Of a stretch of 64,000 bases of DNA, positions 962 through 26,298 are shown one piece after another (the first letter of the stretch is position 1; each line of letters starts with the position of its first letter). This stretch comes from Pseudanabaena galeata CCNP1313 (GTDB taxonomy: Bacteria > Cyanobacteriota > Cyanobacteriia > Pseudanabaenales > Pseudanabaenaceae), in assembly GCF_029910235.1 (NCBI RefSeq), contig NZ_CP112874.1, positions 3,791,001 through 3,855,000 of the forward strand, read 5' to 3'. The notes below the pieces were generated by a model. It worked only from the letters and a program-made list of their open reading frames with translations, ran no database searches and had not been told where the DNA came from. A program made the position numbers and the translations under genes.

Positions 962-1013
962 TTTATTCCCAACTTTAAACCAGTTCCCTAGAGTGTTAAA
1001 ACGAGAATAGCTA

Positions 1014-1334
1014 ATGAATAGTCAATTTTGGAGTCAAGTTAAAACTAAATATCAGCTTGGGAAGTTGATTTACGGGAAAGTAGAATTTCATACGCCTTTT
1101 GGGGTGTTTGTTAATATTGGGGATGAGCATGTAAAGGGAATTATCCAGATTCCAGATTTTTTGGATAGTGGGGTGATGACTCCTGAAATGTATCCTGAGA
1201 TTGGTTCACCTGTGGGGGCGGTGGTGGTTGGCTATACTGAGGATGATCGCAATCAAGTTTGGTTGAGTGTTAAGCCGAGTGTATTGCAAGAGTCTTTGGT
1301 TAAATTGAGAACGCCTGTTATTAGTCAAGTGTAA
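1014..1334 (+). CDS. Small S1/OB-fold RNA-binding domain protein
   Basis: In this 106-residue protein the central part, LIYGKVEFHTPFGVFVNIGD, followed by HVKGIIQIPDF, matches the S1 RNA-binding fold (G-V/I-F-V-x-I/L then G-hhh). A late segment, VGAVVVGYTEDDRNQVWLSV, is the closing S1 strand set. There is no second domain, so it is a stand-alone S1 protein, probably binding RNA or another nucleic acid. It lies 52 bp downstream of the HigBA pair and could be co-transcribed with it. Its specific role is unknown. Confidence 0.6.
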   Translation: MNSQFWSQVKTKYQLGKLIYGKVEFHTPFGVFVNIGDEHVKGIIQIPDFLDSGVMTPEMYPEIGSPVGAVVVGYTEDDRNQVWLSVKPSVLQESLVKLRTPVISQV

Positions 1335-1470
1335 ACTTCGGGGCGATCGCGAATGATCTAGAGAGCTTTTTACTTTTTACCACCAAAAAAATTTTTTGCC
1401 AAATTTACCCAAAAAGCCAAATTAGTGTGTTAGGATAAATCCAAGCAGTCAAATTAGCGTGTTTGGGTAT

Positions 1471-2268
1471 ATGAGAATCGTGAACAGGCAACCCTTAAAT
1501 GTTGAGCTACTAACGCTTGACGATGGTACTCAAAAGATCGCTTGGGATATCAAGCAACTCCAGTCTTTATTGGGGATAAGCGATTTACTTCATCAGAAAG
1601 AGTTATCTTCAACAACAAATACAGGAGTTAATTCTTCTGGCATACCAACTATTGAGACGGTAATTGCGATATTAGATGAACTTGGTTTAAAGGATTTATA
1701 CGAAGTTCGTTATCGTAAACAGTACGCAACAATCATTCCTAAAACTGATTCTAAGCGTCCAAAAGTTGCTATGTACGTTGTACAACAACAATCAGAACTT
1801 GTCTTGTCTATTCATGAAAAAATATGGAATGGTCATCAAGTTAAATTTTTTTGGAATGAGTGGGATGATAGATATGATTGCGAACCTGAACAAATTTACC
1901 AAATTTTTTATATCCCAGTATCAGAAAAGCCTGATTTCGTTGGGAGGATAACTGAAGTAATGGGAAATCAGGATTCTCGTCTATCCATTTTGGAAGAGAA
2001 TTTATATGCGACTGAAAGTTCATTCGCATTTGAGATGCCTGACGATTTTGAAGGTCTTCCATTACTTAAGGATATGAGTGAACAGAATATTTGCTTTAAT
2101 TTGACTAAAGATCAACGATTCCCCTCAACTGATAGAATCTCAATTGTTGATCTTTCGCACCTTACAAGCTTTCTATCTGAACTAAAGCTTAATATTGAAA
2201 TTTTCCTTCGTTCAAACGGAGAAAAACCTGAGAATGTATTTAAACAATTTAATATTGATCGATTTTAA
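1471..2268 (+). CDS. Hypothetical protein, about 265 residues
   Basis: A clear open frame with normal codon use. A GTG at 1459 is also possible, but the in-frame ATG at 1471 gives the start MRIVNRQPLNVELLTL. I see no signal peptide and no membrane segments. The composition is mixed, with several acidic stretches (WNEWDDRYDCEPEQ). I do not recognise a family. Its neighbours are toxin-antitoxin-like genes, so it may be accessory cargo. The region just upstream has two similar short blocks (CAAATTAGTGTGTT and CAAATTAGCGTGTT), perhaps a local duplication in the promoter. Confidence 0.6.
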   Translation: MRIVNRQPLNVELLTLDDGTQKIAWDIKQLQSLLGISDLLHQKELSSTTNTGVNSSGIPTIETVIAILDELGLKDLYEVRYRKQYATIIPKTDSKRPKVAMYVVQQQSELVLSIHEKIWNGHQVKFFWNEWDDRYDCEPEQIYQIFYIPVSEKPDFVGRITEVMGNQDSRLSILEENLYATESSFAFEMPDDFEGLPLLKDMSEQNICFNLTKDQRFPSTDRISIVDLSHLTSFLSELKLNIEIFLRSNGEKPENVFKQFNIDRF

Positions 2269-2336
2269 CCAAAAGCCAATGATGATTTTGATTTTTAGTT
2301 AACAATTTTAGCGATGACACACATGGAGAATCTACT

Positions 2337-2852
2337 ATGTACATGAGCCAAGTTCAAGAAGGAAAATCTTTTCTTCATCAGGGAGAAATTTGTTTGATGG
2401 AATTAATTGAGGGAGTTTTGCAAGATAAACCTCAATACCGTTTATTTCCTGAAGTTGCCCTTGCGCGGGTAGTTCAGAAAAATGGACTAGAAGCAAGTCT
2501 CCACCATGAATTACAAAAATTTATTAGGAGTTGTAGTTCTCTCGATATTTTGATTTGTCGCCATGAAGCTATGTCTTCTCTGCCTATCATTGCGATTGAG
2601 CGTCAAAGTCCATATCACGACTTTCCTGATCGCCAAGAAGCAGATCGCAAAAAAGCAGCAATTCTCAGAAAAGCAGAACTTCCATTAATCTATGCCGATG
2701 AACCATCCAAAGGAATTGTCCGCTTTGCCAAAGCCGAGCAACCTCAGAATATTTGCTGTGAAGTGAATGTTTATCGAGGCTTAGGATGTGATAAATTGCG
2801 TGAATTTTTGCTGTCAGTGATGGAAGAAAATCATGAGAGTCAAAGGGTATGA
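2337..2852 (+). CDS. DUF2726 domain protein, putative nuclease-like
   Basis: The 171-residue protein contains the DUF2726 pattern: LIEGVLQDKPQYRLFPEVAL, then LDILICRHEAMSSLPIIAIE, then a conserved ADRKKAAILRKAELPLIY segment. Members are thought to adopt a restriction-endonuclease-like fold with acidic residues in the D-I-L-I and A-I-E strands; activity here is inferred. The start at 2337 has GGAG about 10 bases upstream. Its stop overlaps the start of the next gene (ATGA at 2849-2852), which implies translational coupling with a Gp49-type toxin. Confidence 0.65.
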   Translation: MYMSQVQEGKSFLHQGEICLMELIEGVLQDKPQYRLFPEVALARVVQKNGLEASLHHELQKFIRSCSSLDILICRHEAMSSLPIIAIERQSPYHDFPDRQEADRKKAAILRKAELPLIYADEPSKGIVRFAKAEQPQNICCEVNVYRGLGCDKLREFLLSVMEENHESQRV

Positions 2853-3202
2853 CTGATAAAGCAATTCGTTGGATCGGCTCATCCCTAAAAGACCTAACAA
2901 ATTTTCCTGATGCAGTTCGTAAAAAAGCAGGTTTCCAACTAAGAGCGATTCAGAGTGGCGATTCACCTTCTGACTTCAAACCCATGCCGACCGTTGGTTT
3001 AGGTGTTGAAGAAATTCGTATTCGGACTGAAGATGCTTATAGAATCTTCTATATTGCCAGATTTGCAGAAGCCGTTTATGTTCTCCATGCTTTCCAAAAG
3101 AAAACTCAGAAGACTTCAAAATCAGATATAGAAATCGGACAAAAGCGTTATCAGCAAATGTTGCAATATCGACAATCTGACAAAGCAAACATTGATAAAT
3201 GA
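2849..3202 (+). CDS. Gp49/HigB-type toxin (RelE superfamily)
   Basis: This 117-residue protein matches the phage-derived Gp49-like (DUF891) family. Landmarks are KAIRWIGSSLKDLTNFPD at the N-terminus, VEEIRIRTEDAYRIFYIARF in the centre and VYVLHAFQKKTQKTSKSDI, the family's 'HAFxKKTxKTP' signature, near the end. These are ribosome-dependent RNases inhibited by XRE antitoxins. The gene is coupled by ATGA overlap to the DUF2726 gene. The expected antitoxin is not downstream on the same strand: an XRE gene lies convergent, 8 bp away. Confidence 0.85.
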   Translation: MTDKAIRWIGSSLKDLTNFPDAVRKKAGFQLRAIQSGDSPSDFKPMPTVGLGVEEIRIRTEDAYRIFYIARFAEAVYVLHAFQKKTQKTSKSDIEIGQKRYQQMLQYRQSDKANIDK

Positions 3203-3210
3203 AGAAATTA

Positions 3211-3516
3211 TCAAGCTGCTTTCACATTTACCTCAAACCTCACATCCATCCCTGCACGCACCAACATCATCACCAACTTATCAATGCTAAACCTCTCAAT
3301 ATCACCATTGATTAAATCGCTAATCCGAGGTTGAGTTTCACCAAAAAACAAAGCAGCTTGCTTTTGCGTCCATCCTTGAGACTGAATGAAACGCTTAATA
3401 TTCAACATCAAGTCAGCCCGAATTTTGAGATTAAGAGCCTCTTCAGGCGCAAAGCCCAAATCTTCAAATACATTCGTCCCACCTTGAATAACTTCAGAAA
3501 TTTGATTCTGGGTCAT
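3211..3516 (-). CDS. XRE-family antitoxin, HigA2-like
   Basis: In this 101-residue protein the helix-turn-helix is plain: NIKRFIQSQGWTQKQAALFF followed by GETQPRISDLINGDIERFSI. The tail, KLVMMLVRAGMDVRFEVNV, is typical of antitoxins paired with Gp49-type toxins. It is encoded on the opposite strand to the toxin and ends 8 bp from it, so the two cannot share an operon promoter in the usual way. Either it has its own promoter in the 3517-3591 gap, or an inversion has separated the pair. Confidence 0.85.
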   Translation of the reverse strand: MTQNQISEVIQGGTNVFEDLGFAPEEALNLKIRADLMLNIKRFIQSQGWTQKQAALFFGETQPRISDLINGDIERFSIDKLVMMLVRAGMDVRFEVNVKAA

Positions 3517-3591
3517 TTATTTTTTGATTTGTTACTACACTAATATACCTTATTTGGCATACTAGCATAGTAATATTTAAGTAGCAAATAG

Positions 3592-3701
3592 GAGGCGATC
3601 GCTTGTGTGTTAGAGACATTGATGATTGAGGCGATCGCTTTTTGATGAGGTTAGGGGCGATCGCTATGTGGTGTTGTTGGTTTGTTGAGGGGCGATCGCT
3701 G
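3592..3701. repeat. Left direct repeat flanking the HNH cassette
   Basis: The block starts GAGGCGATCGCTTGTG, continues with GACATTGATGATTGAG, and ends TTTGTTGAGGGGCGATCGCT. A near copy lies at 4559-4642 in the same orientation, on the other side of the two-gene cassette. The left copy carries about 26 extra bases (near 3648-3673) with an additional GCGATCGC. Each block is rich in HIP1-type octamers. Confidence 0.75.
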
Positions 3702-3772
3702 TTTGATTGAGCTTAGGGGCTATCTGATAAAATGAACACCAGAAGCTAACATTAGCAATCACTTACTTAACT

Positions 3773-4120
3773 ATGCAAATCACCCTAGACATACCAGACG
3801 ATATCGCCGCTACTGTACAAGATAACCTGCCGCAAATATTAGCTCTAGGATTGCGAGAAATAAACGCTAATCCTAATAACGGCTTTTCTGGATTGACGGA
3901 AATATTGCATTTCTTAGCCAAACTTCCATCCCCTCAAGAAGTCTTAAATTTACGCCTTGCACCAGAGGCACAGCAAGAAATTGATAATCTATTAGAAAAA
4001 AATCGTACTCAAGGTTTTAACGAAAGCGATCGCCTACTATGGCAACATTATGAATTTATCGAACATCTAGTGCGTCTTGCCAAAACTCAAGCCCTGATTA
4101 AGCTCCAGCCGAGTCAATGA
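3773..4120 (+). CDS. Small acidic protein of unknown function coupled to an HNH nuclease
   Basis: This 115-residue protein begins MQITLDIPDDIAATVQDNLP, a beta strand plus helix resembling the start of small antitoxin-like (UPF0175/DUF2281-like) proteins. It continues with a helical, Leu-rich middle and a C-terminal acidic helix (EFIEHLVRLAKTQALIK). It overlaps the HNH gene by 4 bp (ATGA). This arrangement suggests an antitoxin or specificity partner for the nuclease, but the sequence gives no direct proof. Both genes lie between long direct repeats. Confidence 0.6.
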   Translation: MQITLDIPDDIAATVQDNLPQILALGLREINANPNNGFSGLTEILHFLAKLPSPQEVLNLRLAPEAQQEIDNLLEKNRTQGFNESDRLLWQHYEFIEHLVRLAKTQALIKLQPSQ

Positions 4121-4542
4121 GTAAGAGTTATATCTCCGCTAAAATTAGAAAACTAGTCAGCGATCGCGCCCAAAATTGTTGTGAATATTGTCTGATTCCT
4201 GAAAGCTTAACCTTAGTTTCCCATCAAGTAGATCATGTAATTGCTGAAAAGCATGGAGGTAAAACTATAGAAGAAAATCTAGCTTTATCTTGTTCACTGT
4301 GTAATCAAGCTAAGGGCAGTGATATTGCGTCTATTGATGCAGAAACAGGCGAAGTTATTAGACTTTACCATCCTAGACAAGACCAATGGCAAGAGAATTT
4401 TCAAATCGAAGAATCTAGTGGTGTAATTTATCCATTGACTACAATTGGGCAAGTGACAATACAGCTACTGAAGATAAATCGATCAGCTTGCTTACCATAT
4501 CGGCAGATGCTGGCTCAAGCAAAAATACTGATGCAACAATGA
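4117..4542 (+). CDS. HNH endonuclease
   Basis: This 141-residue protein has the complete HNH/zinc-ribbon layout: CCEYCLIPESL near residue 22, the catalytic strand HQVDHVIAEKHGGKT, then ENLALSCSLCNQAKGSDI, where the second Cys pair and the final Asn/Lys of the motif sit. Members nick or cut DNA using one metal ion. After the motif come IDAETGEVIRLYHPRQDQW and a helical tail, a pattern common in stand-alone cyanobacterial HNH proteins. It is translationally coupled to the preceding 115-residue protein. Confidence 0.85.
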   Translation: MSKSYISAKIRKLVSDRAQNCCEYCLIPESLTLVSHQVDHVIAEKHGGKTIEENLALSCSLCNQAKGSDIASIDAETGEVIRLYHPRQDQWQENFQIEESSGVIYPLTTIGQVTIQLLKINRSACLPYRQMLAQAKILMQQ

Positions 4543-4558
4543 TTTTGTTGGTTATGAT

Positions 4559-4642
4559 GAGAGCGATCGCTTGTGTTTTAGAAGCATTGATGATTGAGTC
4601 GATCGCTGTTTGATGCTGTTGTTTGTTGAGGGGCGATTGCTG
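4559..4642. repeat. Right direct repeat flanking the HNH cassette
   Basis: The sequence GAGCGATCGCTTGTG, then GCATTGATGATTGAG, then TTTGTTGAGGGGCGATTGCT, repeats 3592-3701 in direct orientation with point differences and without the roughly 26-bp insert. Two of its HIP1 octamers have decayed (GTCGATCG, GCGATTGC). The remaining gap to the next gene (4643-4804) holds no convincing coding sequence. Confidence 0.75.
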
Positions 4643-4804
4643 AAACTTCATCAATGTTGATTCGTCAGTTGCCTGTTGAGCAACTGCAACTTCCTGAAAG
4701 TTGGCAATATACTCCCGCCAATGAATACACCACGACAAACATTATGAAGCGATCGCCTATCGTCACTGAACTGACGTTTTTTTACTATATTGGACAAATC
4801 AAAA

Positions 4805-4839: not shown

Positions 4840-6399
4840 GTAAAAACTTTTGCCGATCACCTCAGCAAGCCCCTCTAAGGTATATTCCAGAGCTTCACAA
4901 TCAACTCGCCCTAATAATTCGTGGCAAGTCTTAGTAGTTTGAGGACCAATTGAAGCGATTTTTACCTTGGCAATCCACGATCGCCAAGTTTCTTGGGATT
5001 CGACGCGATCAAGTAGTTGACAAAAATGCTTGACAGTTTTGGAGCTAGCAAAGGCGATCGCATCTAAGCTCTGATTTTGAATTGCGTCTAGAGCCACAGG
5101 ATCGATCGCTTCAGGACATCCCGACTCATAGGCTGCAATAGCATCAATAATCGCGCCATGTTGCTGCAACTGCTCTACCAAAATCTCCCGTCCGCCCGAC
5201 TCCACACGCGGAAACAACATTTTTGTGTCAGTTAAAACATGATTGGGAATAGCAAGAAAGGCATCCACCAGAGCATCGGCAACAAAGTCCGTCGGTACTA
5301 AATCTGGTAAAATCCCATAATTTGCCAAAACGTCGGCAGTTTTGCGCCCCACTACAGCCACTTTTAAAGAATGCAAAGCACGGCTATCTTGCCCCGATTC
5401 GCGCAACCGTCCAAAAAAGCTCTCAACGGCATTCGCGGATGTCAAAATTAGCCAATCGTAACTGGATAGATTGGCAATCGCCTGATCGAGCATCTGCCAA
5501 CTGCGCGGCGGCAAAATTGCCAAAGTTGGCATCTCGATTACCTTTGCTCCTTGACTGGTCAATAAATCTGTAAATTGGCTAGCCTGACCCGCCGCCCTTG
5601 TTACCAAAATTGTTTTGCCTTGCAATGCTAACTTGTCCTTTTTGAGATCTACACTTTGCTCAAAATTTTCCAACGATTGATCGCCCTGATGTGACAATTG
5701 CTCATGAAACTTTACGACTTCACCAATAATAATCACCGATGGCGATAGCGATCCTTTAGGTAATTTTGATTTAATATCCTTCAGAGTTCCTGTCCATACT
5801 TGTTGATCGGATCTCCCACACCAACGCACGATCGCAATTTTTGTATCCGCAGATTTTCCCGCTTGTAATTTCTCTAATAAGCTTGCCAGATTATTTGTCC
5901 CCATCAAAATTACCAATGTCGGAATTTGGGCGATCGCTTCCCAAGGCAATCGCTCCAAATCATGCCCCGTCATCACCGCAAAACAAGAACTCGCTTCCAC
6001 TTCCGTAAGTGGTATTCCTGCCAACATGGGAGCCGCGATCGCACTAGAAATTCCTGCAACAACTTCCCATTCACAATTTGCTGCTTGTAGGGCAAGTATC
6101 TCAGGTAAAGATCGCCCAAATATCCAAGGATCACCACTCTTGAGCCTCACCACGCGCTTACCTTGTAAGCAATATTCCACCAGCATTTGATTGATTTCGG
6201 CTTGCTTGATGCTTTCCTGTCCGCCACGTTTACCAGCAATGATGCGATCGCAGTTTGCAGGAGCGAGGTCTAATAAAGTGCGATCGACCAGCGCATCACT
6301 AATAATTACCTCAGCATCACTAATCAAATCCCTAGCACGAACCGTCAAAAATTCTACGCTACCAATCCCTGCGCCAACTATAAAAACTTTCCCGTTCAT
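4825..6399 (-). CDS. cobA-hemD: Uroporphyrinogen-III C-methyltransferase fused to uroporphyrinogen-III synthase
   Basis: In this 524-residue two-domain protein, residues about 1-245 are a SUMT/CobA methyltransferase: VFIVGAGIGSVEFLTVRA at the N-terminus, VVRLKSGDPWIFGR, and VVAGISSAIAAPMLAGIPLT. This domain methylates uroporphyrinogen III at C2 and C7 towards siroheme and cobalamin. Residues about 262-515 are a HemD domain (KTILVTRAAGQASQF, DWLILTSANAVESFF, DAIAFASSKTVKHF), which closes hydroxymethylbilane to uroporphyrinogen III. Such fusions are common in bacteria. Its ATG overlaps the stop of the Uma2 gene by 4 bp. The C-terminal codons lie in a palindrome. Confidence 0.93.
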   Translation of the reverse strand: MNGKVFIVGAGIGSVEFLTVRARDLISDAEVIISDALVDRTLLDLAPANCDRIIAGKRGGQESIKQAEINQMLVEYCLQGKRVVRLKSGDPWIFGRSLPEILALQAANCEWEVVAGISSAIAAPMLAGIPLTEVEASSCFAVMTGHDLERLPWEAIAQIPTLVILMGTNNLASLLEKLQAGKSADTKIAIVRWCGRSDQQVWTGTLKDIKSKLPKGSLSPSVIIIGEVVKFHEQLSHQGDQSLENFEQSVDLKKDKLALQGKTILVTRAAGQASQFTDLLTSQGAKVIEMPTLAILPPRSWQMLDQAIANLSSYDWLILTSANAVESFFGRLRESGQDSRALHSLKVAVVGRKTADVLANYGILPDLVPTDFVADALVDAFLAIPNHVLTDTKMLFPRVESGGREILVEQLQQHGAIIDAIAAYESGCPEAIDPVALDAIQNQSLDAIAFASSKTVKHFCQLLDRVESQETWRSWIAKVKIASIGPQTTKTCHELLGRVDCEALEYTLEGLAEVIGKSFYPQIK

Positions 6400-7159: not shown

Positions 7160-8868
7160 TTTGAAATAATCCAATTGCGGCGGAAAAATCTTGCTAAATC
7201 TGACTCATCGATCGCTAAACAGATCGGACGACCATGAGGGCAAGTGTGAGGATTGCGGGTTTGTTGCCATTGCCAGAGCAGATCGCGAATTGTAGATATT
7301 TCCAGCTTTGTGCCATTGCGAATCGCGCTACGACAGGCTGCGGTTGCCCTTGCCATCGTCGGATCATCTTGCTGACTCATTTCTTGCAAAATCACCGCAC
7401 AATCTTCATGCCCAATTAAAATTTCAGGCAGCGATCGCACAGCCCAGAGGTTATTTCCAAAAGCTTCTACTTCTAAACCTAGTGCTTGCAACCGTTCAAT
7501 TTCATCATCAGAAAGTTGCTTTAATAAAATTGGTTGCTCGATCGCCACGATTTGCCACTGAGTTTCGATTTGCTCAAAGAGAACTCGCTCATGGGCAACA
7601 TGCTGTTCCACTAGCCATAAACCGCCCGCATGTTCCGCCAAGATGTAAGTATCGAGAACCTGCGCGATCGCCTTTAACGATGAATTTGGTTGATTAAAGG
7701 TTTCGCGTTTGGCAGGAATTAAATAAGAAGTTTTGCGTTCAGCAGTTTTTAAGAGATCATTAGCTGCACTTCCGTAATTGATTGGAGAACTGGATATAGT
7801 GGCTTTGAGGGCTTCCGTAATACATTCTTTTAACTGAGTTTGAATTTCTCCTAAATCTTGAATATAGGCTTCAGCTTTAGCAGGATGACGATTCCAATCG
7901 ATGCGATCGCAAGGCAAGTTTAAATTAACAATGCATACAGGATAACGATTGCGAGGTAAGGTTCTCTCTAAATTAAAGAGAATAGTTTGCTCTAATTCAG
8001 GGAAATTAATTACCCGTCCATTGAGAATGATTTTTACCCAATCAGGACGACGACGAGATAGGCGATCGGGTAGTCCGAGGGTGAGGGAGAGTCCCTCACC
8101 CCCAGCCCCTCTCCCTATGGGGGAGAGGGGAGCAAGACTCTTGCTCCCCTTCTCCCCTAATGGGAGAAGGGGTTGGGGGATGAGGGCAAATTCTTTATAC
8201 ACCAAATCATAGGGCTGAATCGAACTAATGATTTGCGGCAAAATCTCACTAGCATTCTCTCCTGCCCAAATCGTCATCCATTCTCGATTGTCGAGATTAA
8301 CTTGCCAGTTAACTTGTGGATTCGCGATCGCCATTTGCTGAATCTGTAATTGCACCTTGCGAACTTGCTGCGAATTACTAGGCAACGATTGTAAGCGATT
8401 GGGATAGCGAGAAAATAGATTGCGAACGGTGACGACCGTACCAGATGCGATCGCGACCACTTTGGGGCTAGTCTGCAAATTACCATGCTCATCATAATGA
8501 GCCTGATATCCCACAGGTTCTAGAACAGGACGACTACAAATATTCAGATCAGCAAGTTGAGCAAGACTATAGAGAGCTTCACCCCGAAAGCCTAAACTGT
8601 TAATCTGTTGTAAGTCTTCAGCATTATTGATTTTACTAGTTGTATGCGGTGTCGCTGCCTGTGATAAATCAGCGATCGCCATGCCACAGCCATTGTCGCT
8701 CACCTGTACCGACAGAGAATCTGTCCATATCGAAATCACGATTCTGGTTGCATTAGCATCGATCGCATTCTCAGCAAGTTCTCTGACTACCGCCACCAGT
8801 GAATCAATCACTTCACCTGCGGCGATTAGATGCACAACTTCTATAGGTAGCGTATGAATGTTTTGCAT
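7156..8868 (-). CDS. mutL: DNA mismatch repair protein MutL
   Basis: This 570-residue protein has the GHKL ATPase motifs near the N-terminus (ELAENAIDANATRI, SDNGCGM, GFRGEALYSLAQLA). The transducer region includes NGRVINFPELEQTI, and the C-terminal dimerisation domain has a metal-site motif, EQHVAHERVLFEQ (Glu instead of the usual Asp of DQHA), plus CPHGRP near the end. It couples MutS recognition of mismatches to strand removal. An in-frame palindromic repeat of about 31 residues (near residues 227-258) interrupts the ATPase/transducer part. The upstream ATPase gene ends 3 bp before the mutL start. Confidence 0.93.
   Translation of the reverse strand: MQNIHTLPIEVVHLIAAGEVIDSLVAVVRELAENAIDANATRIVISIWTDSLSVQVSDNGCGMAIADLSQAATPHTTSKINNAEDLQQINSLGFRGEALYSLAQLADLNICSRPVLEPVGYQAHYDEHGNLQTSPKVVAIASGTVVTVRNLFSRYPNRLQSLPSNSQQVRKVQLQIQQMAIANPQVNWQVNLDNREWMTIWAGENASEILPQIISSIQPYDLVYKEFALIPQPLLPLGEKGSKSLAPLSPIGRGAGGEGLSLTLGLPDRLSRRRPDWVKIILNGRVINFPELEQTILFNLERTLPRNRYPVCIVNLNLPCDRIDWNRHPAKAEAYIQDLGEIQTQLKECITEALKATISSSPINYGSAANDLLKTAERKTSYLIPAKRETFNQPNSSLKAIAQVLDTYILAEHAGGLWLVEQHVAHERVLFEQIETQWQIVAIEQPILLKQLSDDEIERLQALGLEVEAFGNNLWAVRSLPEILIGHEDCAVILQEMSQQDDPTMARATAACRSAIRNGTKLEISTIRDLLWQWQQTRNPHTCPHGRPICLAIDESDLARFFRRNWIISK
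8093..8186. repeat. GC-rich nested palindrome read in frame within mutL
   Basis: Outer arms CCCTCACCCCCAGCCCC and its near-complement GGGGTTGGGGGATGAGGG enclose an inner palindrome (GGGGAGCAAGA / TCTTGCTCCCC). On the coding strand it gives PLLPLGEKGSKS and SPIGRGAGGEG. The RGAGGEG peptide resembles the RGAGGD encoded by the repeats at 46794-47487, so these are related repeat classes. The reading frame of mutL is preserved. Confidence 0.8.
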
Positions 8869-25796: not shown

Positions 25797-26028
25797 ACAC
25801 AACAACTACAGTAATTTGAGCTTGCTCAATAGTATAAATTATGCGATATCGCTGTCCAACCGCACGGACGCTGTAATAACCATCTAGTTCACCTAGCAAT
25901 GGTTTACCTTGTATTTCAGGAGATTCTGCGAGTTTATCAATGCGATCGCTAATTTTTTGACGAATGCGGCGATCGTTAATCGCTAGCAATAATTTGAAGG
26001 CTGTAGGCTGAATGACGATGCGGTACAT
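25795..26028 (-). CDS. RelE/ParE-type toxin with shortened C-terminus
   Basis: In this 77-residue protein MYRIVIQPTAFKLLLAINDR, then KISDRIDKLAESPEIQGKPL and GYYSVRAVGQRYRIIYTI form a normal RelE core, with the central basic residues in place. The frame ends TVVVV and stops at once in the arm of the 29-bp hairpin. Family members normally continue about 8-12 residues with a conserved Arg and Tyr used in mRNA cleavage. The toxin may therefore be weakened or inactive. It is coupled directly to the antitoxin (stop and start adjoin at 26029/26028). Confidence 0.8.
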   Translation of the reverse strand: MYRIVIQPTAFKLLLAINDRRIRQKISDRIDKLAESPEIQGKPLLGELDGYYSVRAVGQRYRIIYTIEQAQITVVVV

Positions 26029-26298
26029 TTAGAGGTCTAAGTCCCGTTTAGCAGATTCCCAATCGAGACCTTGTACTGATTGAGCCTCAGTAATCCCTTG
26101 GCGTAAGTTAACCATAAGGCTAGAGTCTCCCAAAATTTCTAAGGTTTCGAGAATGGATTCGTAATGTTGCCATGTCATCACAGCTAAAACAGGCTTACCT
26201 CGGCGGGTAATAGCCAATGTTCCACCTTCTTTAACTAGTTTTTCAGGTAATGAAGTTAGTTCATGCCTTGCTTCGGTAATGGGAAGGTTGGATAGCAT
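26029..26298 (-). CDS. Phd/YefM-type antitoxin
   Basis: In this 89-residue protein the N-terminal fold ITEARHELTSLPEKLVKEGG, then LAITRRGKPVLAVMTWQHYE, is the Phd/YefM DNA-binding domain. The C-terminal segment (NLRQGITEAQSVQGLDWESA) is the toxin-binding tail. It precedes the RelE-like toxin in the typical antitoxin-first order. It probably represses its own promoter in the 26299-26341 gap. Confidence 0.88.
   Translation of the reverse strand: MLSNLPITEARHELTSLPEKLVKEGGTLAITRRGKPVLAVMTWQHYESILETLEILGDSSLMVNLRQGITEAQSVQGLDWESAKRDLDL

Follow-up and report, generated by a model that had tools for sequence, protein, structure and literature searches.

We find that a two-gene unit of Pseudanabaena galeata CCNP1313, encoding an HNH nuclease and a small partner protein, is probably a toxin-antitoxin (TA)-like module carried as a directional cassette that recombination probably shuffles. 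The cassette architecture, built on direct repeats of a family here called R1, is well supported. A TA role for the pair has moderate support, drawn from comparison of genes and proteins. The window, meaning the whole 64,000-nucleotide stretch that was analysed, is C1:3791001-3855000 of a 5.84-Mb genome. Cassettes were compared among 25-26 genomes of the genus, the named relatives being Pseudanabaena and Phormidium tenue.

The pair and its flanking repeats

The partner gene (3773-4120, forward strand, 115 aa), a putative antitoxin, shares an ATGA overlap with the HNH gene (4117-4542, forward strand, 141 aa), a putative toxin. The earlier note had proposed that octamer-rich direct repeats bracket this coupled pair, and this is confirmed. 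The upstream block (3592-3715, forward strand) belongs to the R1 family, with a 52-bit profile match at 3631-3706, and contains four GCGATCGC octamers; the downstream block (4559-4642, forward strand), identified by alignment and profile, is likewise HIP1-rich and faces the same way. The two align without gaps at 88% over 58 nt (3595-3652 with 4563-4620), and again at 95% over 22 nt (3680-3701 with 4621-4642). A whole-genome BLAST search recovered the downstream copy at E 3e-14, and the R1 profile run on the whole genome matches the window at 3595-3667 and 3673-3706; near the pair, the only matching blocks are those directly flanking it on both sides. HIP1 spacing in the window copy of R1 is 36+26 bp. 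The interval between the window's two repeats holds exactly two genes, partner and HNH, and no transposase, unlike an insertion sequence or composite transposon. A promoter-like conserved segment, TGATAAAATGAA (3720-3737, forward strand), accompanies the pair in the printed flanks of all close relatives, and we infer that it is the promoter.

Pfam assigns an HTH_37 antitoxin-like gene (3211-3516, reverse strand), which adjoins the upstream block, and, convergent with it, a Gp49/HigB-like toxin gene (2849-3202, forward strand). Further upstream is a HigB/HTH pair at 369-961; together with the HNH pair, these genes make a TA-rich island of the window's first 4.7 kb. On the other side, between the downstream repeat and hemD, a 98-bp piece (4642-4739) matches at 88% the start of a gene (C1:3789128-3789225) lying about 1.9 kb before the window begins. 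The piece resembles a truncated duplicate and is perhaps a rearrangement scar.

The HNH protein

The HNH domain is recognised by Pfam at E 2e-14. Residues C22, D39-H40, N54, C59, C62 and N63 are invariant among 47 aligned sequences, and C25 nearly so; in this alignment the enzymatic site is intact, both in its CxxC zinc pairs and in D39-H40/N54. The best Foldseek matches of the structural model (pLDDT 93) are PtuB of retron Ec78/Eco7 and of Septu (TM 0.58-0.65 of the query), and the best PADLOC matches are to PtuB1 (E 3e-11).

These matches speak for a compact PtuB-type anti-phage system, in which the partner would replace PtuA as keeper and infection would free the nuclease to cut DNA or tRNA. 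Also counted for it are RloAB and a restriction-modification system among cassette neighbours elsewhere, and the cleavage of tRNA-Tyr that is reported for Septu (PMC13096335). What is shared with Septu and the retron effector PtuAB is an HNH fold that resembles PtuB along most of the protein; however, similarity is limited to the HNH protein, which has 141 aa against about 200-240 aa, and a small RHH-like (ribbon-helix-helix-like) partner is found instead of a PtuA-type ATPase, none of which stands beside the pair in the window. We regard such a system as possible yet doubtful. A full Septu system was rejected, PtuA being absent. The earlier note had left the choice between a TA and an anti-phage module. 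A TA module is plausible from the gene overlap, the HNH site, the RHH-like start of the partner, the TA neighbours and the lack of HNH-only loci, while an anti-phage role is only possible, from the PtuB-like fold.

About seven more HNH paralogues at E 1e-20 or better are present in the same genome, at sites that include C1:37759, C3:129302, C1:3327433 and C1:2883921, several of which have a divergent upstream partner of their own. In relatives another HNH gene, distinct from the first and paired with a small partner of its own (MMTQTMVKPSSW...), is also a repeat-bounded cassette (L234 3827-4555, L144 1849-2576, L152 4162-4861).

The partner protein and its family

No Pfam family was found for the window partner, a PDB sequence search found nothing, and a structure search with its model gave no structural relative. 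Its N-terminus, MQITLDIPDDI, is RHH-like; the model begins with an extended stretch and two helices, in ribbon-helix-helix-like fashion, and then has a C-terminal helical hairpin. A FitA-like RHH match was obtained for one of 50 members of the partner family (7e-5), and none for the window partner. Planctomycete and chloroflexote members are missing the N-terminal part, which suggests that it is the C-terminal part that probably contacts the nuclease.

The partner family is found class-wide: of 96 cyanobacterial genomes sampled, 51 have it. Coupled pairs extend to Planctomycetota, Chloroflexota, Acidobacteriota and others. The upstream gene is the small partner in homologous loci, of which there are about 60, and the ATGA overlap is conserved in many of these, across phyla. 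The genus has 16 partner loci and 11 HNH orthologues, with a partner beside every one of the 11 HNH genes; five loci, a small number, are partner-only and none is HNH-only. Since two of the five share one location, about four HNH losses are indicated. This pattern fits antitoxin and toxin roles, in numbers too few for proof.

The same comparison bears on whether the HNH protein might be just a free-standing or homing nuclease of the usual kind, its upstream gene being an unrelated regulator. The similarity of its HNH domain to those of Cas9/IscB and Gme would agree with this. We consider it very improbable, given the conservation of partner and ATGA coupling in many phyla, the lack of any genus HNH orthologue without the partner, and no insertion inside a conserved gene.

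A TA module is the reading we prefer. As in type II TA modules (FitAB/VapBC-like, with RHH antitoxins), the genes form a small, overlapping, co-directional and translationally coupled pair; the antitoxin-like gene comes first and has an RHH-like start, the other product is enzymatic, and an orphaned first gene may be tolerated. Unlike in those modules, the putative toxin is an HNH nuclease and its partner lacks a Pfam family. The term "HNH" is absent from the text of the Makarova 2009 and 2016 Synechocystis TA surveys.

The R1 repeat family and what lies between its blocks

A profile built from repeat copies gave 141 genome matches up to E 1, and merging the 103 stronger ones yielded 69 R1 blocks. 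The core, GCGATCGCTGTTTGATG, with up to 2 mismatches, has 101 matches in the genome, against 0 for a reversed control pattern. Blocks measure 30-320 bp and consist of a unit of about 54-62 bp repeated in tandem. On the main contig, neighbouring blocks lie at most 4 kb apart in 38 cases, where 3.4 were expected (maximum 9 in 1000 draws), and 37 of these 38 close neighbours are on the same strand. The intervals are typically 0.5-1 kb long, as is a single module of two genes; 15 blocks are isolated. Arrays of R1 blocks are also present in G022 and G014. R1 is strong in all five genomes of the genus in a class-wide sample, and only 2 of the 72 other genomes of that sample have any match (1-3, all weak); the family is essentially restricted to the genus. 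Single-strand folding of the repeats is strong (z -4 to -6) because they contain palindromes, and was not counted as evidence for function.

Genes within arrays were identified from individual array stretches and with Pfam. Of the 37 R1 intervals other than that of the HNH pair, 23 have a recognised Pfam toxin or antitoxin gene, one more has RloA/RloB, and another a DNA methylase with a TdeIII-type restriction enzyme; 12-13 lack a recognised TA or defence gene, and some hold insertion sequences or unknown genes. The TA families are YoeB, ParE, HicA, PemK/MazF, BrnT, TumE, Gp49, PIN, HEPN/nucleotidyltransferase, TacA/GNAT, Phd, addiction antitoxins and DUF433. The array at 2947-2952 kb, found by the blind R1 search only, consists of six module-sized cassettes in a row, of which four have Pfam-recognised TA genes; the remaining two look like RelE- and HicAB-type pairs, by a likeness that carries no single-protein Pfam confirmation. 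The array at 4380-4385 kb has RelBE-like, HicAB, MazEF and Phd/ParE with HEPN/MNT cassettes and a second HicAB copy. In contrast, a control region of 58 kb in the same window (4.8-63 kb) has one Phd/ParE-type pair among 60 genes, with 20 of its 22 small proteins Pfam-scanned singly. That pair, at 25798-26298, has a weak repeat-profile match only. The earlier note had named the repeat around unrelated genes genome-wide as evidence against its proposal. Half of this is seen: the repeat does occur genome-wide, but what it surrounds is mainly TA and defence units.

In one array (L166) a HicAB cassette occurs twice (5113-5857 and 8064-8783), each copy between repeat blocks and with the body 94% identical, which suggests a recent duplication.

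Exchange among relatives

Copies of the pair in relatives have a DNA identity of about 86-96% and different neighbours; the pair occupies several addresses and never changes its orientation to its own repeats. Homology between arrays ends within 50 bp of a repeat in 56 of 113 cases, where 21 were expected (maximum 33 in 500 shifts). Cassette bodies compared with the repeats masked keep their orientation to the nearest repeat in 108 of 109 matches, the sole exception being a transposase. At one address, beside lpxD, the same slot holds the HNH pair in G018 and a YefM/YoeB pair in G011, and the two genomes share both flanks (92% on the lpxD side, 89% on the HTH_37 side). (The names lpxD, obgE, lipA and ahcY come from reading translations by eye, not from a scan.) The proposal that the pair spreads as a unit is supported by these differing addresses, by the homology ends in repeats and by the lpxD swap; some shared cassettes may reflect plain vertical inheritance.

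The left side of the window copy can be followed in other genomes. The HTH_37 gene keeps its repeat in G009, G010, G014, G018, G020 and G022, and the sequence beyond varies. In G014, window positions 1011-3702 are collinear up to the repeat, after which other cassettes follow. In G009 homology spans the HTH_37 gene and ends at 3640, within the repeat; after that single repeat comes an obgE-like gene, with no pair. A lone repeat without the genes, as the earlier note had anticipated for sister strains, is thus present in G009 beside the HTH_37 gene, but the far flank differs from that of the window, and an exact empty site that keeps both flanks was not found for the window copy. On the right, no other genome of the genus was found to have hemD next to the pair; in six genomes (L237-L242) hemD adjoins another gene, and no repeat separates the two. 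Most relatives have a weak or degraded downstream repeat.

It may be asked whether the repeats are passive filler of variable intergenic islands, associated with TA genes since both accumulate in tolerant sites. HIP1 is generally common in cyanobacterial genomes (PMC4390886), and the isolated blocks and the intervals with insertion sequences or unknown genes agree with such filler. The same-strand, single-module spacing, the fixed polarity, the breakpoint enrichment and the lpxD swap would all be unexpected, and we judge filler to be unlikely.

Comparison with integrons

We return to directional cassettes, which in order and polarity resemble those of chromosomal integrons. Both form long arrays of single modules, often TA, with same-facing sites and orientation kept. 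In contrast to integrons, G000 has no integrase above the curated profile cut-off, the repeats are HIP1-based without attC motifs, the cassettes are in either gene direction, and the arrays are many and separate. An integron integrase scores above the curated profile cut-off in 12 of 25 genus genomes; the same directional rule, and attC-like repeats near intI in G006, would likewise fit integron cassette arrays served by an integrase acting from elsewhere in the genome. However, G000 and G018 carry the pair and have no integron integrase above the cut-off. R1 lacks GTTRRRY/RYYYAAC boxes, a scan of five repeat arrays (L159, L166, L209, L223, L229) for attC motif pairs gave 0-2 matches, none strongly folding, and R1 is essentially absent near intI at six loci (two weak matches). 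We therefore hold this origin to be highly improbable: the arrays fail the defining features. Integron identity was rejected as unsupported by the integrase profile, the attC scan and the R1 search near intI.

The true integrons of some relatives, with their own integrase and attC sites, are separate from the R1 arrays. In G006 classic attC-looking sequences lie near an intact integron integrase (L259 666-751, 2899-2984 and 6021-6104), and differ in sequence from R1. The integron integrase is beside ahcY in at least two of the 12 carrier genomes.

Proposed mechanism and meaning

In the explanation that we prefer, the HNH protein would be a nuclease that, when unbound, harms the cell producing it; the small protein, translated together with it, would bind and restrain it, and probably bind its own promoter through the RHH start. 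The pair would be one cassette of a set that spans the genus, most of them type II TA modules, between direct HIP1-containing repeat blocks. Recombination of same-facing blocks would move, swap, duplicate or delete cassettes and leave their orientation to the repeats unchanged. The simplest route would be RecA-dependent homologous recombination, within the chromosome or with incoming DNA; acting at same-facing blocks, it would account for the breakpoints and the polarity, and for duplication and loss, with no need of a dedicated enzyme. An alternative route would be a recombinase acting at HIP1, where site-specific recombination has been suggested by earlier work cited in PMC4390886. As with HIP1 palindromes generally, GCGATCGC is part of each R1 repeat (PMC4390886); unlike them, HIP1 is here inside a longer genus-specific unit that borders TA modules. 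A literature search covering papers outside subscription found none linking HIP1 with TA modules, and no direct match for HNH toxins and repeat-bounded TA cassettes.

TA modules are mobile and clustered. To our knowledge, outside integrons one can seldom see how a single TA module moves. In these arrays the borders, the polarity and the exchanges are directly readable, and the question of movement therefore becomes testable. Cassettes, dozens in a Pseudanabaena-type set, are exchanged between chromosomal places without a visible integrase. More tentatively, Pseudanabaena might run an integrase-independent directional cassette system on HIP1 repeats, largely of TA and defence content and including an unnamed HNH-type TA family of many phyla. 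The function of HIP1 is debated, and HIP1 would gain a definite part in genome rearrangement; candidate toxins would come to include an HNH nuclease family with an unnamed partner.
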